DNA from: Bacillota bacterium
Lineage (GTDB): Bacteria; Bacillota; Clostridia; Acetivibrionales; JAMNYG01
Direction: 5' to 3'
DNA length: 35,425 nucleotides
NCBI GenBank assembly: GCA_023622945.1
Contig: JAMNYG010000204.1
Location: 1 to 35,425 of the forward strand
Within the stretch, counting starts at the first letter, position 1; every line of letters starts with the position of its first letter. This document shows positions 8,178 through 27,603 of the stretch, in pieces. Below the pieces are notes generated by a model that made no database searches, was not told the DNA's origin, and saw nothing but the letters and a program-made list of their open reading frames with translations. A program made the translations under genes and the position numbers.

Positions 8178-8389
8178 CTTGCCTCAATATACTGTCCCGG
8201 TTGTAATCTGGGATTGAGGTACGCCCTGGGAGATGTGCTTATTATTCGGTTAATAACATATCGGTTTTCCCCTGCCGGCGTAGCCAGAACTTTTTCTCCC
8301 AGATAGTCCATCTCAATATATCTTTCTATAGTCTTCTCGTTATTGTTTTTAAATACCACTTCCCACGGAACTATGGAATACAGTATCAT
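8153..8389 (-). CDS. ylzJ: YlzJ-like small protein
   Basis: A 78-residue protein beginning [13 protein letters not shown], the typical opening of the YlzJ-like family (MILYT.VP.E.IF), with a conserved central LVxP-like block ([21 protein letters not shown]). Function is unknown in all organisms I know of. Its start overlaps the tepA stop by four bases (ATGA), so translation is coupled, as in the tepA-ylzJ-spoIIIE order of Bacillus. The C-terminal codons lie inside a short tandem repeat. Identification rests on N-terminal similarity plus neighbourhood. Confidence 0.8.
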
Positions 8390-9159
8390 TGAAGTTCACT
8401 CCTTGTTTGCCCGGTGCTTTCATTAATTGCATTTCTTTCCTTTTCTTCCCTTATTAACTCATAAAGCTTTTTCAGGGCATCTTCCAGTCCTCCCACTTCA
8501 TCTATCAAACCGCATTCCACGGCTTCCTGACCGAAGAGCACCGTTCCCACGTCATTGGCCAGTTCCCCGGTTTTAAGCATAAGCTCCCTGAATTTTTCTC
8601 TTGATATGCGTGAATTTTTTGAAACAAACTGCACGACTCTCTCCTGCATTTTGTCAAAGTATTCATAGGTTTGAGGCACTCCTATAACCAAACCGCTCAG
8701 TCTGATAGGATGGATTGTCATTGTCGCTGAAGGCGCTATAAATGAATAATCGGTTGACACGGCCATTGGAACTCCTATGCTGTGGCCTCCTCCCAGCACC
8801 AGAGAAACAGAAGGTTTTTGCATGCTGGCAATCATTTCAGCAATGGCCAGACCGGCTTCCACATCACCTCCTACCGTATTCAGTATCAACAAAAGTCCGT
8901 CAATTTCATCGCTTTCCTCAATTGCTACAAGCTGGGGAATGACATGCTCATATTTTGTGGTTTTGTTTTGAGGAGGCAAAACCATATGTCCCTCAATCTG
9001 GCCGATGACGGTAAGACAGTGAATATTTCCTTTCTTACTTGAAACCGACGTAGTACCCAGCTCTTTTATTTTTTTTAAATTCTCTTTGTTGTTTACCTGT
9101 TCAGCTGCCTGCTTCTCTGTATATGTTTCGTTAAATATATTCCTGTTATTCCCGGTCAA
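8386..9159 (-). CDS. tepA: ClpP-family serine protease TepA
   Basis: A ClpP/crotonase-fold serine protease (257 residues), usually annotated as translocation-enhancing protein TepA; the cellular role is poorly defined. Visible catalytic elements are [17 protein letters not shown] (oxyanion glycines 97-98), the nucleophile Ser127 in [12 protein letters not shown], and His150 in MTIHP. The first 45 residues are polar and variable, as in the family. The start is TTG at 9159 with AAGGAG seven to eight bases upstream; no ATG nearby has a comparable site. Translation is coupled to ylzJ. The position ahead of ftsK is the conserved one. In Bacillus the preceding genes are asd, dapG, dapA and rnjB; here a carbohydrate block lies upstream instead. 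Confidence 0.92.
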
Positions 9160-9550: not shown

Positions 9551-9645
9551 ATATCATAAGAAATGGTTCTGTAAAAGAGGCAGAAGTCTCAAAGAAAATG
9601 TACTGTAAAAGCGGTTAAAATCTCTTGAGAAAGGAAATGGTTCAC

Positions 9646-10781
9646 ATGGAATTTAAAACTGTATGCATTAAAGACTCATCGGTAAATCAATGGATCTATC
9701 CCCTGGAAAACTGTACTTACAGCGCTTCCAGGCTGCTGAAAAGCAGAGGCATGTTTAACGTTCCGGTACTTGATTTTGACCTTTCTGCCCTAAAAGGAAA
9801 AACGGTAAAAAAAGCCTGGCTGTATTTACGTTATAGAACGCATCCCATGAAGAAATATGAAATATCCACCATATCCGCCCCATGGGATGAAGGAGACGGA
9901 GATGGTATGGAAAACCCGGGCATTAGCAGAAGTTTCGGATTTGCCGTGCTGGATGCCAAGGCCCAGTTTTATCTGCCATATAAAATATCTACGTGTTTTT
10001 CAAGCTGAAACTCAATGATGGAACTGAAGAAGGATTTAAGACATCAGAGAAACCCGGAAAAACCGCTTTAAAATTTGAGGAAGGGTATTACCGAAAAATC
10101 CATGACCACAGGATGAATTACAATATAGTTCCATACAGCCAGACAGGTGTTGTTTATGCAGGCTATGTACCTGTATTTTCTGAACAACAAGTATTACTGG
10201 AAGGACCCCAACTTCGTTGAAAACCCTAAAGGCATCGTTGACGGAACTTCCTGGTGGCTTCTTGATGAGCCGTTTTTCAGAGATGACTGGCATGCCCTGA
10301 ACTATTTTGGATCCATATTGAAAGAAGTGCAGGATGAGCTTAATAGCGGATACAATTTTGTTTTCAGAGCCGATCTCTCCTTCTGCTACCTTCAGTTTTA
10401 TTATCTTGACGGCCTTTTGAATATTAACTGCACAAGCGCAGGTGTACCTCCCAAACAGGCAGATTATTTAAGATACAGAAGGGATTATTTCGGTGAAGAA
10501 TGCTGGGTATATTGCGGACTGAACGGCCCTTCTCACTCCAATATGGGCAACAACTATATGACCCCTCTTATGGCTTACCTTGCAGGAGCCACAGGTTATC
10601 TTCCGTGGAATTGTTAAAGTACGACTATGACTCTGAACAGATGGAGGCACTTCTGAAAAACGCTCTAGGCATATCAATTTCCGATGTGGAAGGCGCTGAT
10701 GAGATGGGGCGCGCTCATGCGGATATCGTTTACATGGACAGCGTAAAAATCCGTCAGCTCGCTGAAATGCTGTTGAAGTAA
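9646..10781 (+). pseudogene. Remnant of a large carbohydrate-active protein (DUF4091/GH123-like)
   Basis: Four coding stretches follow one another in shifting frames. MEFKTVCIKDSSVNQWIYPL starts at ATG 9646 behind AAGGAAA. Frame changes follow near 9985, 10175 and 10615, and the last stretch ends MDSVKIRQLAEMLLK at 10781. The third stretch is the most informative: WWLLDEPFFRDDWHALNYFG and YFGEECWVYCGLNG, then LMAYLAGATGYLPWN. This resembles the catalytic part of DUF4091/GH123-type proteins, whose members act on sugars. The intact family is much longer, so segments are also missing. It lies convergent to the esterase gene and belongs by content to the neighbouring carbohydrate block. The family call is tentative; the broken state is clear. 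Confidence 0.7.
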
Positions 10782-10856: not shown

Positions 10857-10907
10857 GGGACATTTCTCAAACTGCGAAGCAATTCTTCGAAGCAGAGAAG
10901 TGTCCCC
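10857..10907. repeat. REP-like palindrome, copy 1
   Basis: GGGACATTTCTC (10857-10868) pairs with GAGAAGTGTCCC (10895-10906) with one G-T wobble; inside it is a second small stem, CGAAG / CTTCG. It lies between the convergent broken gene and esterase gene, six bases past the esterase stop, and could terminate both. Its reverse complement shares GAAGAATTGCTTCG and TTTGAGAA with the copy near 27635. Confidence 0.7.
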
Positions 10908-10913
10908 GCACCC

Positions 10914-12026
10914 CTACATTTTCAACAGTTTTTCAAGCACCGGCGTCAACGCTTCTGCTATTCTCCAAAAGCCTAGATCGGTCGGATGGGCTCCGTCAAC
11001 CGAGCACTCATGGAAATCATCTCCCAGGAAGTTGGAACCGTCGCAGAAATAAATGTTCATATCACCTTTGTTTCTGAAGCTTTCCACTACTTCCCTTTGC
11101 ATATCCCGCATCCTGAAGTAGTCTTCAACCCATTCTTTGTTTGGCAGATCCAGAGCATAGCGGATTTTTGAGACAACAAGGATTTTTACAGAAGGATGAT
11201 GCTTCCTGTATATTCTGATAAATTCAGGCAACGTTCTGCTCATGCGTTCATAACCGAGAGAATTTGCTTCATAGTCCAAAACCAGACAAGCGGGATTTTC
11301 AATCTCTGAAATTATTTCGGCAAGCTCGGGTTCTCCCTGACCATTTCCGGAAAATCCGAGATTTATGAATTCATAGTTAAACCGCCTGCTTAATATATTC
11401 GTGTATGCCATACCCGGCCTTGAAGCGCATCCGCCCTGGGTAATAGATGTCCCATAGAATATGACCTTCTTGTCGCTGTCATAGGGCGGCGGAGGCAAAA
11501 GCTCTGCATCATCTTCAATGCCTATTTGAAGTTCCTTTACTCCCTGAGAAAGAGGAAAGTTTAAGGTTATGTTTCTCATCTCCCGGTTTTTGTCTTCAGC
11601 CATAAAGCACTGATATTCTTCAGCCCCGGCATCAAACCTGGCAATGCTTCTGAATATCTTTTGTCCCGGTTTTCCGATATAGCAGTCAAAACCGCACTGG
11701 GCAACGGGAGTCATAAGCCTTGCAGGACTGGAAGGCCAGGCAAGCTTTACCTTGATAGCCACTTTTGCACTGTCGGTCATGAAATGTACCTGTCCACCGG
11801 CAGTAGCATTGGCCAGCCTGTCCACTTCATCCCGTATGGGATATTTGGGGTTAACGGGCAGTCTCCTGTAAACCCTGTCACTTTCTATCCAGGCAAAACC
11901 GGCCAGGCGAAAAGGTCTTCCCATGGGAGAATACCACTTGAGACCGCTGTATTTATCATAATCAATATCTTCAAGCTGCATGTTTTTGTCAATTTTCTCT
12001 ATCGAGAGCCCTTTCTCATGACTCAT
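10914..12026 (-). CDS. SGNH/GDSL esterase with GxDLY-type N-terminal domain
   Basis: A probable carbohydrate esterase of 370 residues. The N-terminal half has the beta-sandwich signature of GxDLY-domain proteins (GLKWYSPMGRPFRLAGF, YRRLP). The C-terminal half is an SGNH hydrolase: block I VIFYGTSITQGG with nucleophile Ser near 193, block II NLGFSGNGQGE, block III LVLDYEAN, and block V DGAHPTDLG near 342-350 supplying the Asp/His pair. Such enzymes remove acetyl or similar groups from sugars. No signal peptide is visible, so it should act inside the cell. It follows the GH20 gene by 223 nt and is bracketed by two REP-like palindromes. The Shine-Dalgarno (GGAG) is about 11 bases from the ATG, rather far. 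The substrate is not known. Confidence 0.88.
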   Translation of the reverse strand: MSHEKGLSIEKIDKNMQLEDIDYDKYSGLKWYSPMGRPFRLAGFAWIESDRVYRRLPVNPKYPIRDEVDRLANATAGGQVHFMTDSAKVAIKVKLAWPSSPARLMTPVAQCGFDCYIGKPGQKIFRSIARFDAGAEEYQCFMAEDKNREMRNITLNFPLSQGVKELQIGIEDDAELLPPPPYDSDKKVIFYGTSITQGGCASRPGMAYTNILSRRFNYEFINLGFSGNGQGEPELAEIISEIENPACLVLDYEANSLGYERMSRTLPEFIRIYRKHHPSVKILVVSKIRYALDLPNKEWVEDYFRMRDMQREVVESFRNKGDMNIYFCDGSNFLGDDFHECSVDGAHPTDLGFWRIAEALTPVLEKLLKM

Positions 12027-12048
12027 AGGATGTCTCTCTCCTCTCTGA

Positions 12049-12112
12049 GATGCTGATAAACTACATTAAGATGTTGATATACCTATATCAGGATGCTGAT
12101 ACACTACATTGC
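12049..12112. repeat. Tandem repeat, 21-22 bp, three units
   Basis: GATGCTGATAAACTACATTAA (shown from 12049) recurs as diverged copies at 12070 and 12092, with a partial GATGTTTC at 12113. It lies directly upstream of the esterase Shine-Dalgarno. Confidence 0.65.
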
Positions 12113-12133
12113 GATGTTTCCGGGTGAAAAAGC

Positions 12134-12172
12134 GGGGACACCTCCGATGATATGGGTATGAGAAGTGTCCCC
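12134..12172. repeat. REP-like palindrome, copy 2
   Basis: GGGGACAC (12134-12141) pairs perfectly with GTGTCCCC (12165-12172). The right arm is preceded by GAGAA as in copy 1, and the left arm by AAAAAG as in copy 1. It sits between the GH20 and esterase genes. Confidence 0.6.
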
Positions 12173-12248
12173 TGGTCCTGGTATCGTAAGATATCCCTGC
12201 ACTGCCGTCAGGGAAGTACTCCTGCCTTCAAAGAAGCACTCTTTAACC

Positions 12249-14156
12249 TTATATAAGCTCCACGGCTTTTACGAATATGTTGTAGCCTTCGTCTTTCGAT
12301 TTCTTTACGGATATTCCCCGTATCTTCTTTTCGGGATGAGGGTTCCTGTAAATTGTTTCATAATACGTCACGTCACCAACCCTTAAGGGAAGAGTTGATG
12401 AAGCCACTTCAATGATCAGGTTGTCTATCTTCTCCCAGGATACATCCTTGTTTGAAATATTTCCTCCGTATACTATGGGAAGTTCAGCAGACGAGCCGTC
12501 TTCATACTCAACTACATATTCGCCCAAAGCATATTTGTCATGTTCAATGAATACTCCGTCATAGAACAGCTTGTACTCAATCCTCCTGTCGGTGGTATGG
12601 AGCACTTTAATATATTCACATCCATCCTCAGCAACGTTGGATGACATTGCTCTTTCCAATGCAGCTTTGTGCTTGTAACGGTAGAGTTCTTTCAGGGCTT
12701 CGTCACGAACCTGGTCATGCATATGGTCGTCATAATCATTGTCCCAGAACATACGGGCTGCATACATGACTTCAAACAGCATTCCGTTTCTCTGGAGGTT
12801 CTCTTCCTTCAATGTGCTCCAGTTAGAGATTATTCCGCCTTTTACGCCCCTGCTGATCCTCTTTTTCCAGTTCCTGAACTGGGACCCTGCAAAGTTTCCA
12901 TAGGTCACCTCAAAACCTCTTGCGTGGAAATCTTCTTCAAGCTTCTCATCAACGCCCCAATACCAGTGGAGTATTTTGAGATCCCTGGGAACAAGATCAA
13001 TGGCTTTATATGTTGCAGGCATTATGCCAAGGAATTCGCCGTTTTCATAATCCCATCCCATGTACATTTTCTTTTCGGCTCCCCCCTGGGGACGGCCCTT
13101 GGAGTCATAGGCATTGAGAAGCTTTTCTCCCCAGATCATTGTTTTAATGCCACGTGCCGAGAGGTATTCCATGATCTTTTTGATATCATTTGCAAATATT
13201 TCCTCGGCCTTTTTGCCCTTGCACTTGTCGCAAATAGCGATTGAATAGTATTCATCATGCCCGATATTGATGATTTCGGGCTGGAATACATCAATAACCT
13301 CATCCAGCACATCAAAAAGGACTTCATAGGATTTGGGATTGGAAGGACAGTATGTATCAGGATACGGATCGTCCTGTCTTTCCCTGAGTTCAGGATAGGG
13401 CAGCAACAGGTAATCGCAATGGCTCAGTGAAGGTACCTCAGCTATCACGTTAAGGTGTCTTTCCTTGCAATAATTGACCAGATCCCTCACTTCTTCCTGT
13501 GTAAGGTAGCTGCCCTCACCGTTTTCAACGTGAATTGAATTCTTATACCATTTGAAAGTCCTCTCCTGAATATCTATGGTCTTTCCGGAGTATTCGGACA
13601 TTTCCTTGCAGTATTCAACCCACTTCTCGTTGATCTCGGGGCGTCTCTTGTACTCCATTGCGCCGCCCACTTCAATCATTATGGTGTTGTATTTATAGTA
13701 TGTGATCATGTCAACGAATTCTTTAAAGTACGGTATGTTGCCCCTTCCAGGAAGATATACCTTAACACCTCTTACCGAGCATACGGGATAATCGTATGCA
13801 AACATCCTTTCAATATATTGATCCTCCATCATCTGAAGCAAGGTCATGCAGCCATAAAACAACCCCTTTTCAGTCAACGAATACACCATGATGTCATCCT
13901 GTATGTCTATAACATAGGCTTCATCATCGTCTTTAAATTCCACCGCAAACTCTTCCGACACCTTTTTTCTTATATCACAGGGTACATCCCTGACAAAGGA
14001 AACGCTCTTATATGTTTCTCCATCAGGGCAGCAGCAAGAAACGGCATTTTCCAACGCCTTTTCAATCAGCGGGGAATCGGTGGATATCTTTGTTTCGCAG
14101 CTTAAGTATTTTCCGCCGTCAAGTTTTTTGAAGTATTGGGGTTGCAAGTATGCCAT
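12249..14156 (-). CDS. GH20-family beta-N-acetylhexosaminidase
   Basis: GH20 enzymes remove terminal GlcNAc or GalNAc by substrate-assisted catalysis using an Asp-Glu pair. The 635 residues contain an N-terminal alpha/beta GH20b-like domain, then a TIM barrel beginning near RGVKVYLPGRGNIPYF, with the catalytic pair in IINIGHDEYYS near residue 300. A C-terminal stretch after about 500 looks like a beta-sandwich. Cys-containing CDKCKGKKAEE follows the catalytic loop, as in some GH20 members. The start is ATG 14156, seven bases after GGAGG; an in-frame ATG at 14171 lies upstream of that site. No signal peptide, so probably cytoplasmic. The UroD-like gene lies 190 nt upstream and the esterase follows. 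Confidence 0.85.
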   Translation of the reverse strand: MAYLQPQYFKKLDGGKYLSCETKISTDSPLIEKALENAVSCCCPDGETYKSVSFVRDVPCDIRKKVSEEFAVEFKDDDEAYVIDIQDDIMVYSLTEKGLFYGCMTLLQMMEDQYIERMFAYDYPVCSVRGVKVYLPGRGNIPYFKEFVDMITYYKYNTIMIEVGGAMEYKRRPEINEKWVEYCKEMSEYSGKTIDIQERTFKWYKNSIHVENGEGSYLTQEEVRDLVNYCKERHLNVIAEVPSLSHCDYLLLPYPELRERQDDPYPDTYCPSNPKSYEVLFDVLDEVIDVFQPEIINIGHDEYYSIAICDKCKGKKAEEIFANDIKKIMEYLSARGIKTMIWGEKLLNAYDSKGRPQGGAEKKMYMGWDYENGEFLGIMPATYKAIDLVPRDLKILHWYWGVDEKLEEDFHARGFEVTYGNFAGSQFRNWKKRISRGVKGGIISNWSTLKEENLQRNGMLFEVMYAARMFWDNDYDDHMHDQVRDEALKELYRYKHKAALERAMSSNVAEDGCEYIKVLHTTDRRIEYKLFYDGVFIEHDKYALGEYVVEYEDGSSAELPIVYGGNISNKDVSWEKIDNLIIEVASSTLPLRVGDVTYYETIYRNPHPEKKIRGISVKKSKDEGYNIFVKAVELI

Positions 14157-14191
14157 AAAACATCCTCCCATGTTTATTTATTTTATTGAGT

Positions 14192-14209
14192 CAGTGACCG
14201 AAGTCACTG
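14192..14209 (-). promoter_or_regulatory. UUCG-capped hairpin in the GH20 leader
   Basis: In the minus-strand transcript CAGUGAC-UUCG-GUCACUG forms a perfect 7-bp stem closed by a C(UUCG)G tetraloop. No T-run follows, so it is more likely a stability or processing element between the UroD-like and GH20 cistrons than a terminator. Confidence 0.55.
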
Positions 14210-14232
14210 CTGGATACGTTAAGGTAAACCGT

Positions 14233-14307
14233 AATGTCATACTGGTAATTTTTCTTTAATGTCAGTTTAATACTTATTATTAAATGTCATGCCAGTAATT
14301 TTCTTTT
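14233..14307. repeat. Tandem repeat, 25 bp, three units
   Basis: AATGTCAT/AATGTCAG blocks recur at 14233, 14258 and 14283 with an exact 25-nt period; the first and third share GTAATTTT. A weaker fourth unit begins at 14308 (ACTTCATACC). It lies in the spacer between the UroD-like and GH20 genes. Confidence 0.6.
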
Positions 14308-14349
14308 ACTTCATACCATTAATTTCCTTAACTGTTAATTTTTTTACCG

Positions 14350-15423
14350 TCACACGCGTAATTTTTCCCGCCATTCCAGAAGCTCATAGGCTTCTTTTTC
14401 GTTTTCGCATCTTACGGATAAAACAACTCCCTCAGGCGAAACCCTGTTAAAGAATTCAGGGACTTCTTTTGCCCTGACATCCTGCTGAAGCACCAGCATC
14501 TTCCCCTTTGACTTTATTTTCCTGTACATTTCGGTAAATCTGTCGTCTAGAGCGCTTACAAACGGTTCGGGCACCCACTGGATTGCATCTATACCCCGGA
14601 TATCCAGTATGATATCCAGATGAGGAATTTCTCCCGAACCGTCAAGGTGATATATGCTGTGATCCAGCCGGTCCGCCTGCTTCTGAAGATATGGAGCCAC
14701 AAACTTTTCAAACATTGCGGGAGATATCATGGCCGAAAAATCGCATTGCAAAGGTGCGTGACGTTTGGGGCACCATATTCCCATCCAGGCAGAAGTTCCC
14801 TCAAAATGCCGGGATGTTATTTCGTACAATTCATCATAGGCCTTGAACCAAAGCTCAAGAATCCTATCCTGGGCGTCGTTAACCTTATCGGGGTTATCAA
14901 TCACATCATAAAGCAGGTTCTCCGTACCTCTCAGAGACGCCAGAATGTCCAGGATTCCGCCCAGATCAGTAATACCGACGGCAAACTTCCCTTTACAGTT
15001 CTCTGCAGCAAGCCTGGTGAGTTCCTTTGTGTAAGCCCACCATTTGTTGGTTTCCTCCAATTTAAGATGTTTGAAAACATCGTCCCAGTCCATTGGGTAT
15101 TCAAACCAGATGGTCCCGCCGGTACTGGTAAGATAGCCTGTCAGGTATGCAGCAAGAGAACCGGCTCCCATGTTAATCCACAGATTTGGATAGGCTTCTG
15201 CCATAAACTTACGGGATTTGGCCCACTGTTCAAACAATCTTATATGCGTTTCGGGAGAATGAGCATAATCGACTATTTCCCACCAGCGAAACGCCGGTTT
15301 CTCTTTGCCCTTCCCCTCATCCTGCAAAGGGCAGACAATCTGAAACAGGGGCTTTTTCTGCTCCTTGTTCCACCACTTTTCATACTCTTTTTTTACCCTT
15401 TGAAAGTCGTCGGTATTTATCAT
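14350..15423 (-). CDS. UroD-superfamily protein of unknown function
   Basis: A 357-residue TIM-barrel protein of the uroporphyrinogen decarboxylase superfamily, which also holds zinc-dependent methylcobamide:CoM methyltransferases (MtaA type). Family-like features are WINMGAGSLAAYLTG, the FAVGITDLGG strand, and the C-terminal YHLDGSGEIPHLDIILDIRG region. At the place where methyltransferases carry the zinc motif His-x-Cys, this protein has His-Leu-Asp (near residue 258). No corrinoid protein gene is nearby. A classic UroD or methyltransferase role is therefore not supported. It starts at ATG 15423 behind GGAGGAG, only 24 bases after the 1242-residue gene, so the two are co-transcribed and probably act in the same sugar pathway. 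Confidence 0.78.
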   Translation of the reverse strand: MINTDDFQRVKKEYEKWWNKEQKKPLFQIVCPLQDEGKGKEKPAFRWWEIVDYAHSPETHIRLFEQWAKSRKFMAEAYPNLWINMGAGSLAAYLTGYLTSTGGTIWFEYPMDWDDVFKHLKLEETNKWWAYTKELTRLAAENCKGKFAVGITDLGGILDILASLRGTENLLYDVIDNPDKVNDAQDRILELWFKAYDELYEITSRHFEGTSAWMGIWCPKRHAPLQCDFSAMISPAMFEKFVAPYLQKQADRLDHSIYHLDGSGEIPHLDIILDIRGIDAIQWVPEPFVSALDDRFTEMYRKIKSKGKMLVLQQDVRAKEVPEFFNRVSPEGVVLSVRCENEKEAYELLEWREKLRV

Positions 15424-15446
15424 TTATAACTCCTCCGGCATCAGTT

Positions 15447-18400
15447 TTAAGCTGTTATTTCAAATTCCTTTTCTGCCTTGACTCCCGTGGCTACGTCCTT
15501 GATGACAACCTTCCATATCCCGGTCTTTTCATTGAAAGGAATATGATATTTCCTGGCTGCCTCATTGCTGCAAAGGGCTACGTTTTCAGAATAAAGCCAT
15601 ACATATTCGCCTTCAGGATCATATACATTTATGGCCACAACATTGGTATATTCTCCACGGGGCTTATCGGTCAGTATTCTGAAGCTTACCTCCAGTTCAT
15701 CTCCTGGAGCAACCTTCTCAGGCACATTTACTTCTATTGCCTCCACCCTGTATGGGAGAAGTGAAAACAGGCCGTTGTCACCGTTTGCTATGGCGGTTTT
15801 GATGGTGTCCGTATATCCCAGATACTCCTTATTCCTTATGTCATATACGTGGTATTTTACAGGCAACCTTATGACAATTTCATCCGCCTTAAGCTCGATA
15901 TCTTCGCCTCCGCCTACTACTAGCCCGTCATGTCCGGCCTTCAGTTTACTTTCAAAATCCCTTATTACAGCCATGTATTTTGCGCTGCCGTCGCTGTAGT
16001 AAACGGTTTCATAGCCCTTATCAACGGCTTTGCCGTCAGGCTTCATTATCTCTCCGAATTTCTCTATGCCTGCAAAGTCCAGGATTTTCCCGATGATCAT
16101 CCTGGTGGCATATCCTCCGTTTTCTTCCTTCCTCTGTCTTGGATATCCGGCCAGGCTGAAGTTAAGGTAAATTCCCTTCCCTTTTCCATACGAGTTTACG
16201 ATCACGGCGGAAACCTTTCTTGAGAAGTCCTGAATATATGCAGCTTTTCCGCTAGAAGGCCTTGTGCCCGGCTCAGCAAAATACAGTTCTCCGCTCCCCC
16301 TTACATCAGGCGCATCGAAGCAGTCAAAGTCCTTGTTCTTCATAAACTCACGGTTAGTATAGAAGGGACGGGCTTCGTTTGTATATCTCTTTATTCCCAG
16401 CACATCATCCAGGAAGCCCTGGTCATAAAGCTTGCAGTGTTTATCCATGATTCCTGTCTGGAAGTCTCCTATTATGGTTCCTCCGTTTTCCACAAACCTT
16501 CTTATCTCTTCTGCCTCTTTGGCACTGATTGCTATGGAGTAGGGCAATATAAGCAGTTTGTAATTTTTGCTTATAAGTTCACCGGCCTCTATCTGCTGGG
16601 TAGCCACAAAATCATACTGATATCCCATATCCTCCAGGATGTTTATCCATCCCTGCCGGTTGTCTTTAAAGCGTTCCTCGTCCCTTATGGCATAGCTGCC
16701 GTGAACCGAAGGCATTGAATAGTGTATCGCAATGCCCAGGTTATCCCTTTTTGCGGTATGAAGAAGCAGCTTTCCTATTCCTTCCCTTCTTATCTCAATA
16801 AAGTTTCTTGCCATATCCATGGCACTGTTGCTGTACGTAAAGTCGGGATTCAGGCAGGCCGGCTGCCAGAAGATGCTCATAAGGGTCAATCCGTGATACA
16901 TCCTGCTCCATATCTGGTGGTCAGCATTAACGCCGCTTACTCCATAACCTGTCCAGCCACCCAAAATGGTTCCGGGACGTGCGAAAGACCTGTGATATTC
17001 CAGCTGGTTTCCAACTTCATAAGCTTCAAAATATCCCACATATTCATGGAGCTGATAGTAATCACAGCCTGAATACGGTGTTGAAGCCTGACATCCTGAC
17101 ATCCTGACGACACCATCAGAATCTTCCTGCCTGATATAATCCCTGATTATCCTGTAGGCATTGGCAAAGGTCATTTCCATAAACAGCCTGTGGTCTCCCC
17201 AGGATGCGTATTGCCCGGTTTTCCTTGCTTCTTCGTACGTATATGGCACCACCTCATCCCAGGACTTGAAACTGGTACCCCACACATTGTTCAGTTCATC
17301 CAGGTCTTTGTATTCTTCCTTAAGCCATTCCCTCATGCTTTTCATGCAATGAGGGCAGAAACAAAGGTCCAGTTCATCCGTATAGCAGGTTACAGAACCT
17401 TCATCATTGGCAAAGTACGCTATCGGATTGAACATCTTTTTCTGTGAAACCGTATCTATTATCTTTTTACCGATTTGTGCCCAAAAGTCCGGGTCATTGA
17501 GACAGGGCACCCTGTACAGGTATTTCTTGTCCTTCGTAGCCAGATATTTCTCCTTGCGCTCTACATAACCTGCCCTGTGATACCAGTAAACTCCCAGACC
17601 GCTGGCTCCGCAGGAAGTAACAACCTTTGAATCTCCGGGATATCCGCATGTGATGCCAATACCTCTGAACAATTTGCCCAAAAACTGCATGAAATCGGGT
17701 CTTCCTGCATATAAGGGAGCCATGAACACTTCAAAATCATTTATTTTCCTCACCTGAGGAATAACAATTATCCTTTTTGATTCCGCCTTATGTATGTAAT
17801 GGCCGTCTATGCATACCTCAGCTTCAATTCTGACGCGAAGGGATTTTACATTCTCCACCTGCCAGCAAAAATCAACTGTTGTTTCATGATCCAAATTGTG
17901 TTCTTCCAGATGAATAATTCTGTCAAAATCATCTATCACCTTTATCTTAAGTACTGCACCGCTTCCTTTGGCTGCAACTTCCGCCTTGAGAATTTCTCCG
18001 GGTTTTATGACTTCGGTGGAACATGCAAGCCTCGTGACTTCTGCCGTCAAAGGATAGCTTATGGGAACCGTCCACCAGTCTATAACCTTGTCACCGTCTT
18101 TTAAGAAAACTTCAGCCCTGAAATCTCCTCCAAGCTTCAACCAATCCGGAAGTGAGATCTCCAATGCGTCAGCGGGCTCTTCATACACTGTGTCATCATA
18201 CAGGTTCTTTATCCTGCAATATATCTTGCCGCAGCTGCATCCTTCCACCTCTGCCCTGATATGTCCGTCTGAAATATTAACATCCTTTATGGTGCAGCAA
18301 GGCTCCTTCCTGGCCGCCCATATGACGCTCTTTGCCAGGAGGCTGTAGAAATACTCCAGATAATCAAAATGAAGTGCACTCTCCAGGCCCAATACAGCAC

Positions 18401-19175
18401 TGTCAAAACATGAACCCCTTACAGGAAAGCTATAATCGGGTATTATGTCACCGGGATAATAACCCAATGCCACTACCCTTCCCTTTCCGTATTCCTTAAC
18501 AGCGGCTATGGGCATTCCGGATTCCGACTCGATTATTACCTCTCCCCTGGCTTTGTAAGGATAGTATCCCAATTCATTATAGGGGATCAAATCCGCAGGC
18601 ATGCCGCTTGTAATGTAATGCTTTTTGAAGATCCACCTGTCCTTGCCTAACTTATCGAATTCGATGACAGGATATCCCCCGTCGTTTAAACCTTCTTCAT
18701 ACAATGCTTCAAGCGGCGACAGCTTATCAAGCTCTTCCACTTTTTCCATATCCTTGCCGCTGTATGGATGAATCAATACAAGACCCGCTCCGTTTTCAAC
18801 ACGCTTCAAAATGGCCTGGCGAGTCTTTGGGGTAAAGTATCCCCATCCGTTTATTCCGGGTAACACCAATACGTCGAAATGTTCATCGGAAGTAAGCACA
18901 TTTTCCATGTTTTGATACATCAGATCCTGGTCCCATATGGCTCCCCTTTTGTCATAAAAATCGCCCAGTCCCCATTTGTTCATATCCCATGCCCTGTCAA
19001 TGGTAACGGTCTCATATTCAATATCATTTCTCTGAATGAACTCAACTACTTCTCGTCCATGCCTCACACTGGGCACGAAAAAGACCTTTACTTTGCCGTT
19101 CACATAGGGTTTTGCCCACAGGGGATGCTTTCTCTCTACTTTGGTGGAATAGGTAATATCGTATGTTTTTTTCAT
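15447..19175 (-). CDS. Giant GH42-like protein with GATase-type N-terminal domain
   Basis: A multidomain protein of 1242 residues. About residues 25-280 look like a class-I glutamine-amidotransferase-type fold of the kind found in beta-galactosidase trimerisation domains (VLVLPGINGWGYFT, VALGYYPGD). A beta-sandwich region follows (about 300-470). The central TIM barrel near 490-830 has FANDEGSVTCYTDELDL at about 587, a Cys cluster CFCPHCMKSM, and ELNNVWGTSFKSWDEV, all in GH42 order, with the Glu of NDEG as candidate acid/base. A second trimerisation-type domain follows near 870-960 (LLILPYSIAISAKEAEEI) and then C-terminal beta-rich domains. No signal peptide. The start ATG has GGAGG seven bases upstream. 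It is probably an intracellular glycosidase; the specificity is unknown, and the architecture is larger than ordinary GH42 (about 670 residues). Confidence 0.75.
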   Translation of the reverse strand: MKKTYDITYSTKVERKHPLWAKPYVNGKVKVFFVPSVRHGREVVEFIQRNDIEYETVTIDRAWDMNKWGLGDFYDKRGAIWDQDLMYQNMENVLTSDEHFDVLVLPGINGWGYFTPKTRQAILKRVENGAGLVLIHPYSGKDMEKVEELDKLSPLEALYEEGLNDGGYPVIEFDKLGKDRWIFKKHYITSGMPADLIPYNELGYYPYKARGEVIIESESGMPIAAVKEYGKGRVVALGYYPGDIIPDYSFPVRGSCFDSAVLGLESALHFDYLEYFYSLLAKSVIWAARKEPCCTIKDVNISDGHIRAEVEGCSCGKIYCRIKNLYDDTVYEEPADALEISLPDWLKLGGDFRAEVFLKDGDKVIDWWTVPISYPLTAEVTRLACSTEVIKPGEILKAEVAAKGSGAVLKIKVIDDFDRIIHLEEHNLDHETTVDFCWQVENVKSLRVRIEAEVCIDGHYIHKAESKRIIVIPQVRKINDFEVFMAPLYAGRPDFMQFLGKLFRGIGITCGYPGDSKVVTSCGASGLGVYWYHRAGYVERKEKYLATKDKKYLYRVPCLNDPDFWAQIGKKIIDTVSQKKMFNPIAYFANDEGSVTCYTDELDLCFCPHCMKSMREWLKEEYKDLDELNNVWGTSFKSWDEVVPYTYEEARKTGQYASWGDHRLFMEMTFANAYRIIRDYIRQEDSDGVVRMSGCQASTPYSGCDYYQLHEYVGYFEAYEVGNQLEYHRSFARPGTILGGWTGYGVSGVNADHQIWSRMYHGLTLMSIFWQPACLNPDFTYSNSAMDMARNFIEIRREGIGKLLLHTAKRDNLGIAIHYSMPSVHGSYAIRDEERFKDNRQGWINILEDMGYQYDFVATQQIEAGELISKNYKLLILPYSIAISAKEAEEIRRFVENGGTIIGDFQTGIMDKHCKLYDQGFLDDVLGIKRYTNEARPFYTNREFMKNKDFDCFDAPDVRGSGELYFAEPGTRPSSGKAAYIQDFSRKVSAVIVNSYGKGKGIYLNFSLAGYPRQRKEENGGYATRMIIGKILDFAGIEKFGEIMKPDGKAVDKGYETVYYSDGSAKYMAVIRDFESKLKAGHDGLVVGGGEDIELKADEIVIRLPVKYHVYDIRNKEYLGYTDTIKTAIANGDNGLFSLLPYRVEAIEVNVPEKVAPGDELEVSFRILTDKPRGEYTNVVAINVYDPEGEYVWLYSENVALCSNEAARKYHIPFNEKTGIWKVVIKDVATGVKAEKEFEITA

Positions 19176-19369
19176 AGTTTAACCTCCGATTTGCAAGAAA
19201 TAAGTATTTCCTGGAAGTGAAAGCGCAGGGCTGACAATACTTAATCAGTATATTAATTATATCATGAATTTAACATAAGTCATCATATAATTGCCATGCA
19301 GAATTACACATACAAATTGTGGATTTCCCGTGCAAATGCAGTCAAATTTCAGGTCTTGCATTTCCTGTT

Positions 19370-21667
19370 TTATTTTCTCAACGGATAAATATCCTCAAAC
19401 TCTACCTTGGAGCCTTTGGCGGGTCCGTACCAGACACTGCTTCCAAATGTGGTTATATACAGCATGTCTCTGTTCCAGGGATCTATGACTGGTCTGTGCC
19501 CCCATTTGAAATTGTATCCCTTTAGCCTTTCCCAGGTGCATCCTCTGTCCCCGGAGCGATAAGCCGACCCGTTAAATGTTACGAGATAAAGGACTGACGT
19601 GTCTTTCGGATCTACAGCTACTGCATATGCATGCGCTGATTTGTCAAAAATGTTTTTCCAGGATACTCCGCCGTCTTCGGTCATGTAAACCCCGCCATAG
19701 TTTTCCTTTCCTTCCATGGTCCGTGGCCAACATGCCAGATACATGGTTTTGGGGTTTTTCGGGTCAAAAGCCAGGCTGTTGGGAGCATTAACTCCTTCCG
19801 GCAGAGGCAGTCTTTCCCAGCTTTCTGCGCCGTCCCTGGACAAATAAAGGCTTCCGTCAACCTCTTTTCCGTTTTTCAATCCCCTGACCACCACCAGATA
19901 AAGAAGGCCATCAGGAGTAAGGGTAAGTTCCCAGGCATTGAGATTGCCGGTGATGCCATTGTTTTTCAATTCCCATGTTTTCCCGTCATCAACAGACTTA
20001 AACACCCCTTTTCCTACTGCTGCAACATACAAAGTCCTGTTGCCTGCCGGGCTCTTTGGATCAAGTACTATACTTGTGGGGACCGAGTTTTCGGGCATAC
20101 CCTGGTTTGACTTTTGCCACGAAACCAGGCCGTCTTCTGACCTGCATACACCTCCCACATACTTGTCGAAATCGCCGCGTGCGAACATCTTGGGTCTTGG
20201 AAGGTCATGGCAGTATGACCACACAGACCAGGCTTTCCCCTTTACTTCAGGATCAAACACCATCCAGTAGCATGTGTTTATCCACAGGCGGGGTACTCCG
20301 TTTATGGAATGTCTCCAGCTTCTGCCACCGTCGTGGGATTGATGCATGCCGATGTCGGTGTAAGAAATCACTATATGGTCTTTGTCAAATGGGTCGAAAT
20401 GGACACCGTAACAGGTGGTGACCTCCAATCCGCAACCGGTTGACGTACCGTCCGGATTATCTCTTGAGTAAACTTGTTTCCACAGTTTTCCTCCGTCAGT
20501 TGTACGGGTTGTCATTCCGTAACCGGTATAGTAACAGACATCGGGGTTAGCAGGACAAACCGCCATTCCAAGAGGTGACCCCATCCAGTCGGTATCATAG
20601 CTTCTTTCCTGCCAGCCTCCTATAAGGTTCTCCGGATTCTTATCCCCTATTTTCAGCACCCATTGCCAGGTATTGCCCATATCTATGCTCTTCATTATAC
20701 CCAGGTAGTTCATTTCAGGCATAGGATTGCTGAATATTTCGGGATAGCGCAGAACCGATACATAAACAGTTCCTGCATCTTTCGCTGCTGTGGCAATGCA
20801 TTTAAACTCGCGCCTCTGGCCGTTCCTGGGACCTGCAAAATCAGCAAAAAGCCCCCCGTCCAGTTCAGTCCACGATTTTCCCCTATCTCCGGACCTGAAC
20901 ACACCGCTGAATACTCCGTTATTCTCGTATCTGGCAGGCGTCACCATATAAAACACGTCTGTTCCCGTATCGGGATCAATACCACAATCAGCTGAAATGA
21001 TTTTTTCAACTCCGGAAGGCAGCTCTATTTTCTCTGCCAGGCCGTTATCATCCGTTATGCGGTAAACGGCGGTATCAGTAAATGCGAATATTTCTTTGCC
21101 TTGATTATTGGAACCATTGTTGACATAAAGCTTAAGAAATTCTTTCCCTTCCGGCCTGCAAAGCTCACGCCACTTCTTCCCTCCGTCGTGGGATGAAAAC
21201 AGGAGCAGACCTTCAGACTTTATTCCTATGTAAATATTTGAATTGTTTTCAGGATCTATGGCAATGGTCTCCACAGAACCACCCGGCCAGTTATCCTTTG
21301 AAATGTATTTATGACCAGCATGGTCGCCGACCATAACCTCAAGTTCAACGGCTTCAGGATCCGGGAAAATCAACTTCCACGTCATACCCCGGTCCTGTGA
21401 TCTGTAAAGACCTGTAGAACCCAGGTAGATAACGTTTGGATCAAAGGGATCGAAGGCTGAAGCAAAGGACGTTGATTTCATGTTCAGCTGACGCCAGTTC
21501 TGACCGCCGTCATGCGTAATATACGTGCCTGTCATATCGCAAGCCACAATAGCCGTATCAGGGCTATGAGGGCTTACATTCGGCACAAACATCGCCCCTC
21601 CCCCTCCGGGTCCCAGGTTATACCATCCGTATTTTTCCGCCGGGAATTTTGAATTTTGCGGGATCAT
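19370..21667 (-). CDS. Beta-propeller protein with twelve Asp-box repeats (GH74/sortilin-like)
   Basis: A 765-residue protein made of repeated Asp-box (BNR) motifs of the form S/T-x-D-x-G-x-x-W. Twelve are visible, including THDGGQNW, SQDRGMTW, SHDGGKKW, TTDGGKLW, SHDGGRSW, SVDDGKTW, TEDGGVSW and SGDRGCTW. Spacing suggests two propellers, as in GH74 xyloglucanases and Vps10-like proteins. The N-terminus GWYNLGPGGGGAMF resembles the GH74 opening, though I cannot verify the catalytic Asp residues. Unlike secreted GH74 enzymes it has no signal peptide (MIPQNSKFPAEKYGW), implying a cytosolic role. It is the first gene of the minus-strand block, with TATAAT about 20 bases upstream and GGAG six bases before the ATG. 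The next gene lies 195 nt downstream. Confidence 0.75.
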   Translation of the reverse strand: MIPQNSKFPAEKYGWYNLGPGGGGAMFVPNVSPHSPDTAIVACDMTGTYITHDGGQNWRQLNMKSTSFASAFDPFDPNVIYLGSTGLYRSQDRGMTWKLIFPDPEAVELEVMVGDHAGHKYISKDNWPGGSVETIAIDPENNSNIYIGIKSEGLLLFSSHDGGKKWRELCRPEGKEFLKLYVNNGSNNQGKEIFAFTDTAVYRITDDNGLAEKIELPSGVEKIISADCGIDPDTGTDVFYMVTPARYENNGVFSGVFRSGDRGKSWTELDGGLFADFAGPRNGQRREFKCIATAAKDAGTVYVSVLRYPEIFSNPMPEMNYLGIMKSIDMGNTWQWVLKIGDKNPENLIGGWQERSYDTDWMGSPLGMAVCPANPDVCYYTGYGMTTRTTDGGKLWKQVYSRDNPDGTSTGCGLEVTTCYGVHFDPFDKDHIVISYTDIGMHQSHDGGRSWRHSINGVPRLWINTCYWMVFDPEVKGKAWSVWSYCHDLPRPKMFARGDFDKYVGGVCRSEDGLVSWQKSNQGMPENSVPTSIVLDPKSPAGNRTLYVAAVGKGVFKSVDDGKTWELKNNGITGNLNAWELTLTPDGLLYLVVVRGLKNGKEVDGSLYLSRDGAESWERLPLPEGVNAPNSLAFDPKNPKTMYLACWPRTMEGKENYGGVYMTEDGGVSWKNIFDKSAHAYAVAVDPKDTSVLYLVTFNGSAYRSGDRGCTWERLKGYNFKWGHRPVIDPWNRDMLYITTFGSSVWYGPAKGSKVEFEDIYPLRK

Positions 21668-22653: not shown

Positions 22654-23232
22654 TTATACCAACACGGGCTGAATTTGTTTTCCTTTAAGTGCCTCCACGA
22701 CAGCCGGCAATATCATATCGAATTTGGCCACCAGAGAATTGCACTTTTTAATTGGATCATCCTGCCCAAAAGGTACAAAGTATATATTCTTTGTATTGAG
22801 CAAAATTCCAAGGTTCTTTGCATTGGCTCCAAGGCCGTCATTTGTCGATATTGCTATGAGAACAGGTTTTTGATTTCTCAAATTTGCCTTTACCGCCATG
22901 GTAACAGGCGTATCGGTTATAGCGTTTGCAATCTTGGCCAATGTATTTCCGGTACAGGGAGCAACCACAATAATGTCAAGAAATCCTCCAGGACCTATGG
23001 GTTCTGCATCTATGATGCTTGAAATTGCTTTTTTCCCGCAAATTCCTTCAATCCTGGTTTTAAAGTTTTGAGCCCTGCCAAAACGGGTGTCATAATTTGC
23101 TGCTGTTTCAGAAAAAATGGGATATATCTCGGCACCTTCAGCCACAAGTTTCTCTATCTGCGGTATCACTTTGTCAAATGTACAAAAGGAACCAGTAAGA
23201 GCAAATCCTATTTTCTTTCCCTCCAAAAGCAT
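22654..23232 (-). CDS. dpaB: Dipicolinate synthase subunit B
   Basis: Partner of DpaA in making dipicolinate, the spore-core chelator, from a lysine-pathway intermediate in the mother cell. The 192 residues have the flavoprotein-like fold of SpoVFB: KIGFALTGSFCTFDKVIPQI at the N-terminus, IVVAPCTGNTLAKIANAITD near 110-130, and AISTNDGLGANAKN. The length matches the family (about 200). The start lies only four bases after the dpaA stop with its own TTGGAGGG downstream context, so the pair is one operon. In Bacillus, asd and lysine-pathway genes follow; here the operon ends with dpaB and a repeat-filled spacer. Confidence 0.95.
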   Translation of the reverse strand: MLLEGKKIGFALTGSFCTFDKVIPQIEKLVAEGAEIYPIFSETAANYDTRFGRAQNFKTRIEGICGKKAISSIIDAEPIGPGGFLDIIVVAPCTGNTLAKIANAITDTPVTMAVKANLRNQKPVLIAISTNDGLGANAKNLGILLNTKNIYFVPFGQDDPIKKCNSLVAKFDMILPAVVEALKGKQIQPVLV

Positions 23233-23235
23233 CTT

Positions 23236-24114
23236 TTATACCCCCAACTCCTCAAGAATATTGTAAACAGTGTCTTTTATGAAATTGGCCGCCGTTACGG
23301 GAGCTACTTTCCCGGGAAGTGACAATGCCCATATGGTCTTCAGACCCATTTCTCTTGCCTTGTCAAAATCCAGACCTCCAGGCTTTGAAGCCAGATCGAT
23401 TATCAGGCATTCACTGTTGACCAGTTTCAGAAGGTCGGCATTTAGTATTAAGCTTGGAATAGTATTGAATATTACATTCATTTCCGGCAGATATTCACCG
23501 AGTGCACTGATAAAGACAGGATGATATCCGTAACTCCTTATCCATGCTATATCTGAAAACTTCCTTGCCTCTACGTAGACATTGGCACCCAATCCTTTTA
23601 ATTTATCAGCCAGAGTCTTTCCTATTCTTCCATAACCTAAGATCAAGGCATTACAACCGTGCAGTGTTATGGGCATTTCCTCCATGGCAAGCTGAATAGC
23701 TCCTTCTGCCGTCGGTATAGCGTTCAGAACGGCCATTTCTTCCCTTTCAAGCAAATCCACAAAATATACATTGCATACCTGTGCAAGATGGGAAAGCTTG
23801 TTGCTGATTCGTCCGGCTATGAAAAGCTGGTTTTTGTTCATTGTCCTGAAAACATCATTCATAAAAATCTTACCGGAATGAAAAGGAGCATTAAGGGTTT
23901 CGTCATCATTTGAACAAGGTATGGGACCGATCACTGCATCAGAATCGTCAATAGCTGTTTTGAGATCCCTGCTGTTGTCTATATGTATCTCAAATCTTGC
24001 ATTGTCAAATCCGAACAGTCTTACCTCGTGTCCATCCTTTTTCAGTGATTCAGCCAGTTTTACGTTCCTTAAATCTCCTCCCAAAATACTGAAGTTCTTT
24101 TTATTCAAATTCAT
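23236..24114 (-). CDS. dpaA: Dipicolinate synthase subunit A
   Basis: NAD(P)-dependent subunit of dipicolinate synthase (SpoVFA), made in the mother cell late in sporulation. It shows an N-terminal FSILGGDLRNVKLAE block typical of the family and a Rossmann motif ALILGYGRIGKTLADKL in the second half, followed by KPGGLDFDKA and the conserved LPGKVAPVTAANF C-terminus. About 293 residues, the usual size. ATG 24114 abuts the GAGGTG Shine-Dalgarno; TTG 24108 has better spacing and may be the true start. A longer in-frame opening to 24213 is not family-like and lacks a ribosome site. A SigK-like promoter lies at 24153-24180. Confidence 0.95.
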   Translation of the reverse strand: MNLNKKNFSILGGDLRNVKLAESLKKDGHEVRLFGFDNARFEIHIDNSRDLKTAIDDSDAVIGPIPCSNDDETLNAPFHSGKIFMNDVFRTMNKNQLFIAGRISNKLSHLAQVCNVYFVDLLEREEMAVLNAIPTAEGAIQLAMEEMPITLHGCNALILGYGRIGKTLADKLKGLGANVYVEARKFSDIAWIRSYGYHPVFISALGEYLPEMNVIFNTIPSLILNADLLKLVNSECLIIDLASKPGGLDFDKAREMGLKTIWALSLPGKVAPVTAANFIKDTVYNILEELGV

Positions 24115-24152
24115 CACCTCAAAAATTGGCAACTGTTTATGGCGACTAGTAA

Positions 24153-24180
24153 TATCATATGAAAGGGGTAATTCTTTAGT
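24153..24180 (-). promoter_or_regulatory. SigK-like promoter of dpaAB
   Basis: On the minus strand CATATGATA (24161-24153) matches the SigK -10 pattern CATANNNTA. An AC dinucleotide at 24180-24179 lies exactly 17 bases upstream, matching the SigK -35. In Bacillus the dpaAB (spoVF) operon is SigK-controlled, which supports the call. Confidence 0.6.
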
Positions 24181-24557
24181 GTTTGTCTGTTTATTCCTTT
24201 TGCTCCGCGGCAAAAGACACCATTGTTATTCTTGAGAATCCGGACGGAAAAGGATTCATAATGGATTTAAAGGATTGGAGTTCAAAAAACAGGTGTGAGA
24301 TATCTCTTAGCAAGGATGATGAGCTGCAGATTCAGGTTGCCCATGAATCCGGGCAGATTGATCTTACAATGGCAGGCAAAAACGGCAGTGAGCCGTACAC
24401 TGGGAACAATCTTAAATCATGTTTGTTCACTGTAAAAGTTTCTGAAACAGACAACTATCAAATATTGATTACAGGCAAAGGTACGACCGAATATTACAAA
24501 TCTTCCATAGCCCGATTTTGGAAACATAAACACGGCTGGGCGAAACTTTTTCTGTAA
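24159..24557 (+). pseudogene. Small unknown secreted-type protein, probably decayed at its start
   Basis: The readable part is 120-odd residues (AAKDTIVILENPDGKGFIMD ... TDNYQILITGKGTTEYYKSS). I do not recognise the family; it looks beta-rich. Upstream in the same frame is ATG 24159 and a short hydrophobic run that would form a signal peptide, but an in-frame TAG at 24177 breaks it. TTG 24183 could start a shorter product that lacks most of the leader, with only a distant GAAAGGGG site. The gene overlaps the divergent dpaA promoter. It is either a dead secreted protein or a small cytosolic protein using TTG. Confidence 0.4.
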
Positions 24558-24621: not shown

Positions 24622-25249
24622 TTATAAATAGCGAAAAGCAAATGCCTTGTATGGAATGGATTTCATTGCGTCCTTCCTCGTTGATTCAAAGATTATATAA
24701 GCTGCCAGCTTGCGAGTGACGATATTATCCGGGAACTTTCCGGGTTTTTGCATATGATGACGTACCAAACACCTATTGCCCCAGGTAATACTAATCAAAA
24801 GCAGGAAATTAACAACCGAATTGAACAGACCTATTGCTGATGCAAAGCTGAAATCTCCGCCCAGCACACCCACTCTGTACACATATGACGAAATAACATC
24901 CGCAACTTCATAGGTTGCAGGATTATACAGAAGAATGATCTTTTCAAACCCTGCGCTCATCATGTTTCCAAACTGCAAAATCAGCATTATGATGATTGTG
25001 GGAGCAATGCCGGGAAGCGTGACATGCAAAACCTGCTGCCATCTTGATGCACCATCTGTTTTTGCAGCCTCATATAGCTGCGGATCAATTGAAGATAATG
25101 CTGCCGGATAAATAATTGAATTCCATCCAAAGTTCTGCCAGATTAATGAGAAAATTATCCCTCCTGATATACTTAAGCAGCCTTGAAAAGGGTACTTGTA
25201 TCTTTGCCGCCGGTCTTGCACCGGATGTATTTATATTCTCAAGCTGCAT
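24622..25249 (-). pseudogene. ABC sugar-transporter permease (LplB type), internally deleted
   Basis: The start ATG 25249, with AAGGGG upstream, gives an LplB-like N-terminus (KIQVPFSRLLKYIRRDNFLI). About 30 codons later the sequence jumps, in another frame, to the C-terminal third: NFGWNSIIYPAALSSIDPQ and the EAA loop YEAAKTDGASRWQQVLHVTL, which contacts the ATPase. About 150 residues with several membrane helices are missing. After NFLLLISI the C-terminus also diverges into non-family sequence, so the partner LplC-type gene has been lost or fused out. It follows the binding-protein gene, the standard order of a carbohydrate uptake (CUT1) operon. No functional importer can be made from it. 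Confidence 0.8.
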
Positions 25250-25319: not shown

Positions 25320-26987
25320 TTAATTGGTCATAAGCCTGTCGTACTGAGCCTGTCTTACTTCCAGCACCTCATCTATACCCATTGCCTTCATCTCATTGAG
25401 GAATGCATCCCACTTATCAAGAGGCTCCTGTCCAAGTATGAACTTGGTTACCATTTCATCTCTGTAAGTGGCAATGTCTGTGAGCTTCCTGTTGATTCTT
25501 TCGAATTCTTCATCTGTCGGCATACCGAATTCAGCTCTCGGAATGATGTATGGTTCAACGAGTTTTGTTCTTTCAAGCATTTCCTGATCTGTAATCTTAA
25601 AGAGCTTGATGTACTCTGCCCTGTTTACATTGGGCATGCTGGTCCATGCACCCAGTGACCTTATTGCTTCAACAGGTCCTAATCCATCCGGGTTGTTCAG
25701 AACAAAATCGGTCATCTTTATCTGGCCGTTTTCAACAACATATGAAATGCCTTCCACTCCAAGATGCAGACGTCTGCAATTTTCCGGGTTGTACATAACA
25801 TAATCCAACCATCTGAAAGCTGCTTCAGGATTCTTGCAGTCCTTTGTAATGGATACCGCACCGTATCCGATACCGCTGGTCTCAATATGTCCGTGATATC
25901 CATTGGGACCTTGCGGTAAAGCTGTCATAACCCAGTTGGCGTCAGATACTTCTGCTTCCTTCAGTTTGTTATTCCACATAGGAATAAACTCCTGCCAATC
26001 TATGACAGCTCCGGCGATGTTCCTGATAACTTTAGATACCATCTGGTCCTGATTATTGGTTGCAAATTCCAGATCCAGGAGACCGTCTTTTACGAGCTTG
26101 TTCAGGAACTCAACCATTTCTTTTGCCCTTGGGTCAAACCATTCACATTGGATCTTTCCGTTTTCATCCGGATAGAATCCATTATTGTTTTTCACGTGGA
26201 GTCCCCATGCATTACCCCAGTTGAACAACTGTCTGACTCCGTTGGCATTTGTCATTGGTATCTCGTCAGCCTGTTTATTGCTGTTGGGGTCTTTTTCCTT
26301 AAATGCCTTAAGTACATTGTACCAGTCTTCAACCGTCTTTGGTTCTTCCAGACCCAGCTTATCCAGTCAGTCTTTCCTGATGAGCCATCCATACGGGCCG
26401 GCTGCTATTTCTTCGTCTCTTGCTCCCGACAGGTGGTAAATGTCACCCTCAGGGGTTTTCATAAGTGCAAGAACCATGGGTTTTTCTTCATATATCTTGG
26501 CTGCGTTTTCTCCGTATTTCTCAATCAGTTCATTGAGGCGGATAATAATGCCGTCTTTTCCGTATTTATAAGGATCTACCGGCATGTAGATTATGTCGGG
26601 CAGATTTACTCCGGAGGCCAGTCTTGTCTGCATTGATGTTGAGTACTGGCTGTTGGGAACTACATCCCACTGGATTTTTACACCGGTTATTTTTTCAATT
26701 TCCTGCCAGACCGGGAGGTTCTGTGCCAAACTTGCCGGTGCATATCTGTTGTCTCCGCATGCATAGGATATTGTCAATGAACCGTCAGTTGCTATAGGCA
26801 TAGGATTCTTGGGACCGGTTGAAGTCTCTTCCTGTGTCTGCTCCTGCTGCTGAGTTGTTGTTGGCTGAGAGGTTTCAGTAGTAGTCGGTGTTGTTGTGCT
26901 TGTATTTTATTTCTTACCACCGCATGCGGATAAAATCAGAGACATTACCATTATCAAACAAATGGTTTTCAATACTAATTTTTTCAC
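25320..26987 (-). pseudogene. Sugar-binding lipoprotein of an ABC importer, two nonsense codons
   Basis: Extracellular solute-binding protein of the oligosaccharide type, 555 codons in one frame. GTG 26987 follows AGGAGGGGG. The signal peptide ends in a lipobox (LILSACGG), so the protein would be lipid-anchored. A Thr/Gln-rich linker (TTTETSQPTTTQQQ) leads to the binding domain (SLTISYACGDNRYAPAS, DWQEFIPMWNNKL, GYGAVSITKDCKNPEAAFRW). Two in-frame stops interrupt it: TAA at 26909-26907, four codons after the lipobox Cys, and TGA at 26369-26367, where family logic expects Trp (RKD-W-LDKLGLEE). No frameshift is present, so decay looks recent. The next gene, the permease, is also broken. Confidence 0.85.
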
Positions 26988-27574: not shown

Positions 27575-27603
27575 TAAAACAAAAGGGACACAAAAGTGTC
27601 CCC
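27575..27603 (-). terminator. Terminator hairpin downstream of mlpA, adjoining the intron
   Basis: On the minus strand GGGACAC-TTTT-GTGTCCC forms a perfect 7-bp stem followed by TTTTGTTTTA, and the next base is the first of the intron. The stem shares GGGACAC/GTGTCCC with the REP-like palindromes. Confidence 0.65.

Follow-up and report, generated by a model that had tools for sequence, protein, structure and literature searches.

The DNA analyzed here (the window) is the entire contig JAMNYG010000204.1 (C200; 35,425 nt) of a metagenome-assembled genome (MAG) from a Bacillota bacterium of the order Acetivibrionales. This 2.67-Mb assembly consists of 211 contigs, is 86% complete, and is the sole genome of its family within the searched set. 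Between positions 10914 and 21667 lies a cluster of five intact, consecutive open reading frames (ORFs), all on the minus strand and with no other gene between any of them. Based on comparisons with Pfam, NCBIfam, and PDB, the five proteins are, in the order of transcription:

19370-21667, minus strand: GH74-like/sortilin-like propeller (Sortilin-Vps10/BNR families), 765 amino acids, no signal peptide
15447-19175, minus strand: GH42-like protein, 1242 amino acids, with a ThuA/DUF4350-like N-terminal region, a GH42-like barrel, and a GH42M domain
14350-15423, minus strand: UroD-superfamily-like protein, 357 amino acids, with a YHLDG...HLD...QW motif (HxD, not HxC)
12249-14171, minus strand: GH20 protein, about 635-640 amino acids (translation more likely begins at a later Met, MAYLQP...)
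10914-12026, minus strand: SGNH/GDSL esterase with an N-terminal GxDLY domain, 370 amino acids (closest solved chain 4lhs, E = 6e-46)

An earlier note, made from this DNA alone, had described five genes running in one direction, and this was confirmed for all five ORFs. The intergenic gaps are 194, 23, 178, and 222 nt in transcription order; the close pair that the note had placed 24 nt apart is real and comprises the GH42-like and UroD-like genes, but the exact distance is 23 nt. The statement that none of the proteins has a signal peptide was also borne out. Within the first 60 amino acids, the maximum 15-residue Kyte-Doolittle mean is at most 0.71 in all five, whereas an ORF of the window that does encode a signal peptide reaches 1.83. 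Moreover, the frame upstream of each ORF reaches a stop within 40 codons, such that there is no space for a hidden signal peptide.

The closest solved relatives of the propeller in the PDB comparison are GH74 enzymes, which have two catalytic Asp residues about 400 residues apart, one per propeller. D44 is invariant and matches, in the alignment with 7kn8, the Asp within RTDVGG, the position expected for the GH74 base. D438 (in TDIG/TDMG), located in the second half of the protein, is also invariant and lies at the position expected for the acid; this putative role is assigned by the likeness of its motif to that of GH74 enzymes. Four additional GH74-like propeller genes were found in the same genome (L107-L110 on contigs C178, C95, C177, and C10), which brings the total to five copies, and these paralogs likewise start without a signal peptide. 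The C10 copy was matched in two pieces with an internal stop, and some of the paralogs lie near genes resembling those of sugar metabolism.

The GH42-like protein resembles GH42 beta-galactosidases in its barrel, its trimerization domain, and an acid/base-type Glu in a DE motif. D591-E592 is invariant in all five sequences compared, with E592 equated to the acid/base residue by motif and with Asp instead of Asn ahead of it. In the GH42 enzyme BiBga42A, the acid/base and nucleophile residues are E160 and E318, respectively (PMC10688820). Unlike these enzymes, the cluster protein has an additional ThuA-like N-terminal region, reaches 1242 amino acids, and has no conserved Glu in the strand expected to hold the nucleophile among the five sequences; E726, present in four of the five, is a candidate. 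The homologs are a paralog in the same genome (C62; 55% identity), two copies in G052 (about 32%), and one in G439 (31%). One extra candidate locus from a contig scan, a 98-residue match with 30% identity, was judged to be a chance match.

Seven members of the GH20 clade were compared, and the subsite -1 Arg (R134) and the catalytic Asp-Glu pair (D306 and E307) are invariant in all of them. These residues and the retained Trp (W451) are shared with GH20 beta-N-acetylhexosaminidases. In SpHex, subsite -1 has a Trp442-x-Glu444 motif, and the counterpart of Glu444 holds O4 of N-acetylglucosamine (GlcNAc) (PMC8098473). In contrast, the equivalent position in the seven clade members is T, T, A, S, K, T, and L, such that the entire clade is without this contact, and the cluster protein is cytoplasmic. 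The closest solved chains, 9fyl and 9fym, are short GH20 catalytic domains. An N-acetylhexosamine (HexNAc)-containing substrate, as proposed in the earlier note, is weakened by the loss of the GlcNAc contact and is unsupported despite the intact Asp-Glu pair. For the SGNH esterase, the block I Ser (S194 in YGTSI, 191-195) and the block V Asp-x-x-His (D344 and H347 in DGAHPT, 344-349) are present. The sole basis for predicting an acetylated substrate would be membership of the SGNH family.

The UroD-like protein matches Pfam URO-D weakly (E = 3e-4, under the curated cut-off), and its H259-x-D261 is invariant in 15 of the 15 clade members compared, within a His-x-Asp-Gly motif. S-methyltransferases of the UroD superfamily have a His-Cys-Cys site. 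In O-methyltransferases, the Cys may be swapped for Asp or Glu (PMC10418091). The weak URO-D match and the His-x-acid motif, in which an acidic residue may replace Cys, liken this clade to the corrinoid methyltransferases of the superfamily (MtaA/MtbA and O-demethylases; PMC10418091). However, the clade matches no solved UroD-superfamily chain by sequence, no third ligand of the expected Zn site was found, and a motif scan found a corrinoid protein beside only one of 20 clade members and none in the window, with the rest of the genome not searched for such proteins. A PDB profile search with the clade (E up to 10) returned no solved relative and one chance match only. A single-sequence AlphaFold model (mean predicted local distance difference test score 45) was not used for fold comparison. 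A scan of viral contigs with the UroD-like alignment found nothing, the matches from a tblastn search of plasmids were confined to short ones to GH42 and UroD, and literature searches turned up no account of a UroD-like protein from a glycan locus.

We searched for the five families in other genomes, covering 58 order, 391 class, and 399 phylum genomes for the GH42-like protein, 391 class genomes each for the propeller and the UroD-like protein, and 58 order genomes and 45 UroD-positive genomes for the GH20 and SGNH proteins. Both the GH42-like and the propeller family are uncommon; among the 391 class genomes, only the genome under study and G052, from the same order, have them, and this co-presence may reflect common descent. 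G052 (about 40 contigs, 99% complete) is also the only relative found with homologs of all five proteins, and these are located on five different contigs (C19, C1, C12, C39, and C34). Similarly, paralogs in the genome under study are scattered, with the propellers on the four contigs named above, the GH42-like paralog on C62, and members of the other cluster families on C64/C36 and C116/C70. In 20 UroD-like neighborhoods, GH20, SGNH, and propeller genes were absent from all and a weak GH42-like neighbor was found in one. At the loci examined outside the window, the maximum is two of the five families.

Two pairs nevertheless recur. In the complete genome G034 from the same order, a GH20 with 58% identity to the cluster GH20 is one gene away from an HxD UroD-like gene; the two are on the same strand within 2 kb, and neither product has a signal peptide. 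This pair belongs to a one-strand series (L115, 671-10745; L117, 3520-7139) that encodes an importer, transketolase halves, an FGGY kinase, an apiosidase-family protein, RpiB, the UroD-like protein, an isomerase-like protein, and the GH20. The importer is LplABC-type, with two LplBC-type permeases and a sugar-binding lipoprotein (names from reading the sequences). The G034 series and the cluster thus share the same GH20 and HxD UroD-like clades, but the former has an importer and lower-pathway enzymes that the window is without, and the latter has the propeller, GH42-like, and SGNH genes, of which no relative was found in G034. The series resembles apiose catabolism. The pair was found by walking from GH20. 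In G439, about 3 kb separate a GH20 from a GH42-like protein whose N-terminus resembles a membrane anchor; this GH20 is nearer to another GH20 of the genome under study than to the cluster GH20. The recurrence of the UroD-like/GH20 and GH42-like/GH20 pairs in sugar loci points to a loose guild of carbohydrate-catabolic genes rather than a fixed five-gene pathway.

The reading that we favor, with a probability of about 0.62, is that the cluster represents a lineage-specific, loose set of cytoplasmic carbohydrate-catabolic genes inserted between the conserved genes dpaAB and tepA/ftsK of a spore-forming clostridial-type bacterium. Intracellular carbohydrate catabolism by these proteins is likely, and this part of the earlier note's intracellular glycan pathway is plausible in light of the absence of signal peptides, the catalytic residues, and the two recurring pairs. 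The most likely task of the enzymes would be to trim small oligosaccharides of plant type that have already been imported. The GH74-like propeller and the GH42-like protein would act on glycosidic bonds. The GH20 would take off a terminal residue that need not be HexNAc, the SGNH enzyme would strip acyl groups, and the UroD-like protein may provide a sugar-modification step, perhaps O-demethylation.

The other part of the earlier note is the claim that the five genes form a single, co-regulated pathway for cytoplasmic breakdown of an imported oligosaccharide that is acetylated and contains HexNAc. This claim is unlikely; it fails the checks that the note itself set for its refutation, and a conserved, HexNAc-specific system is not supported. 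Its attractions are the shared strand without intervening genes, the missing signal peptides, the 23-nt GH42-UroD gap, and the intact GH20 Asp-Glu pair and SGNH triad. Against these stand the negative recurrence check, in which at most two of the five families occur together at any other locus examined and the G052 homologs lie on five contigs, and the T/S/A/K/L residues at the Glu444 position of the GH20 clade. The three gaps of 178-222 nt, together with hairpins, further suggest more than one transcript. The signals concerned are as follows.

19256-19283, minus strand: extended -10 site resembling a promoter (10 of 12), ahead of the GH42-like gene
12134-12172, minus strand: 12-bp hairpin (about -21 kcal/mol) and then a T-rich stretch, between the GH20 and SGNH genes; copy of a dispersed repeat and possible terminator
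10857-10909, minus strand: hairpin and then TTTTT, downstream of the SGNH gene; copy of the same dispersed repeat and possible terminator

The half-site of this palindromic repeat, GGGGACACTTCTC, has 26 exact copies in the genome compared with 0 for a reversed control pattern, and often occurs as inverted pairs about 40 bp apart. In the window it is found on the minus strand at 12161-12172, 10896-10907, and 27592-27603. These repeats could be repetitive extragenic palindromic (REP)-like elements moved by a RAYT-type transposase. Since the hairpins that flank the SGNH gene belong to a dispersed repeat, their function as terminators is uncertain. The totals of a promoter and terminator scan in this region were not above those of shuffled sequence, so single promoter hits weigh little. 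Rfam found no riboswitch in the cluster and matched only a group II intron fragment. The cluster is probably read as at least two transcripts, with likely units being the propeller, the GH42-like and UroD-like pair, the GH20, and the SGNH gene.

Import of the substrate, also part of that claim, is not supported by the window. The five genes include neither a transporter nor a regulator, and no intact importer was found in the window. The nearest importer genes, situated between an M16 peptidase gene and dpaA, upstream of dpaAB, are decayed:

25320-26987, minus strand: LplA-type (DUF3502) sugar-binding lipoprotein pseudogene with two premature in-frame stops (TAA at 26909 and TGA at 26369)
24622-25221, minus strand: truncated ABC sugar permease remnant beside the LplA-type pseudogene

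An equally improbable alternative is a cluster for xyloglucan-type or apiose/pectin-type side chains, in which the propeller and the GH42-like protein would serve the backbone or galactose, SGNH the acetyl groups, and UroD the O-methyl groups. The GH74 relatives of the propeller fit this idea, as does the xyloglucan utilization locus (XyGUL) of Xanthomonas, which contains GH74, GH31, GH35, GH95, and an acetylesterase (PMC8245568) and thus unites a GH74-type protein, a beta-galactosidase-type enzyme, and an acetylesterase as the cluster does. The G034 series joins the UroD-like clade and GH20 to an apiosidase, an FGGY kinase, and a two-piece transketolase. However, the window is without GH31, GH95, GH29, or an outer-membrane transporter, UroD and GH20 are not in XyGUL, and the cluster is not conserved across relatives. 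The propeller, a cytoplasmic protein, has been expanded to five copies, only one apiosidase-linked locus was found, and SGNH and GH42-like proteins are absent from G034. A chance run of unrelated genes that have no functional link and were brought together by gene gain and mobile elements is very improbable, for although a group II intron remnant, palindromic repeats, and pseudogenes lie nearby and the families are dispersed elsewhere, five carbohydrate-type genes follow one another on a single strand and two of the pairs are seen again at independent loci.

Several points weigh against the loose, lineage-specific set. Five same-direction genes without an intervening gene could form one transcript, and the SGNH-flanking hairpins may not terminate transcription given their nature as repeat copies. 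Some of the dispersal could stem from missing contigs in a MAG of 211 contigs and 86% completeness; G052 is itself in about 40 contigs, and its GH20 is close to a contig end. The recurrence search covered about 800 different genomes with a depth that was uneven across the five proteins, and the UroD-like protein was not searched over the whole order. Lastly, neighbors of the UroD-like clade include genes for xylose-isomerase-like, class II aldolase, acetyl-xylan-esterase-like, substrate-binding, GH3, GH31, GH42, and ROK proteins, but a control set of more distant genes from the same loci also contains carbohydrate genes, and this neighborhood signal is therefore suggestive only.

The genes that flank the cluster are housekeeping genes:

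22654-24213, minus strand: dpaA and dpaB (dipicolinate synthase), outside the cluster
8386-9159, minus strand: ClpP-like (TepA-type) protease, outside the cluster

The ftsK gene is located further on beyond the protease gene, and the position of the cluster between dpaAB and tepA/ftsK indicates that the run interrupts housekeeping genes. Several damaged features were observed in the window. Two ORFs without a Pfam match (9625-10617, plus strand), convergent with the SGNH gene, resemble one broken gene. The YmdB gene (103-854) is divided over two overlapping frames, and the manganese catalase ORF (32881-33486) spans only part of the family model; either may be due to a frameshift or an assembly error. 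The Rfam match to group-II-D1D4-4 (89.8 bits; 27406-27548, minus strand), upstream of the dead importer, is probably an intron remnant.

As in polysaccharide/oligosaccharide utilization loci of the Gram-positive type, several carbohydrate-active enzymes are grouped on one strand in this cluster; the dedicated transporter and regulator of such loci are absent from it. Since clusters of glycosidases occur widely, little is learned from the five-gene arrangement by itself, and it should not be presented as a new utilization locus; the G034 series, being compact, offers a better starting point than the window. What is worth keeping are the HxD UroD-like clade, the GH20 clade without the GlcNAc contact, and the five cytoplasmic GH74-like propellers, each of which is a target for biochemistry. 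The HxD UroD-like clade, with sugar-catabolic neighbors in several bacterial families, is the part of the cluster that most deserves follow-up. Tentatively, and at long odds, it may represent a distinct uncharacterized sugar-catabolic family used in many glycan loci, possibly enzymes that O-demethylate methylated sugars, whether or not a corrinoid protein takes part, and which in this cluster would act on a methylated, acetylated plant oligosaccharide together with the GH74-like propeller of the cytoplasm and a GH20 that is not HexNAc-directed.

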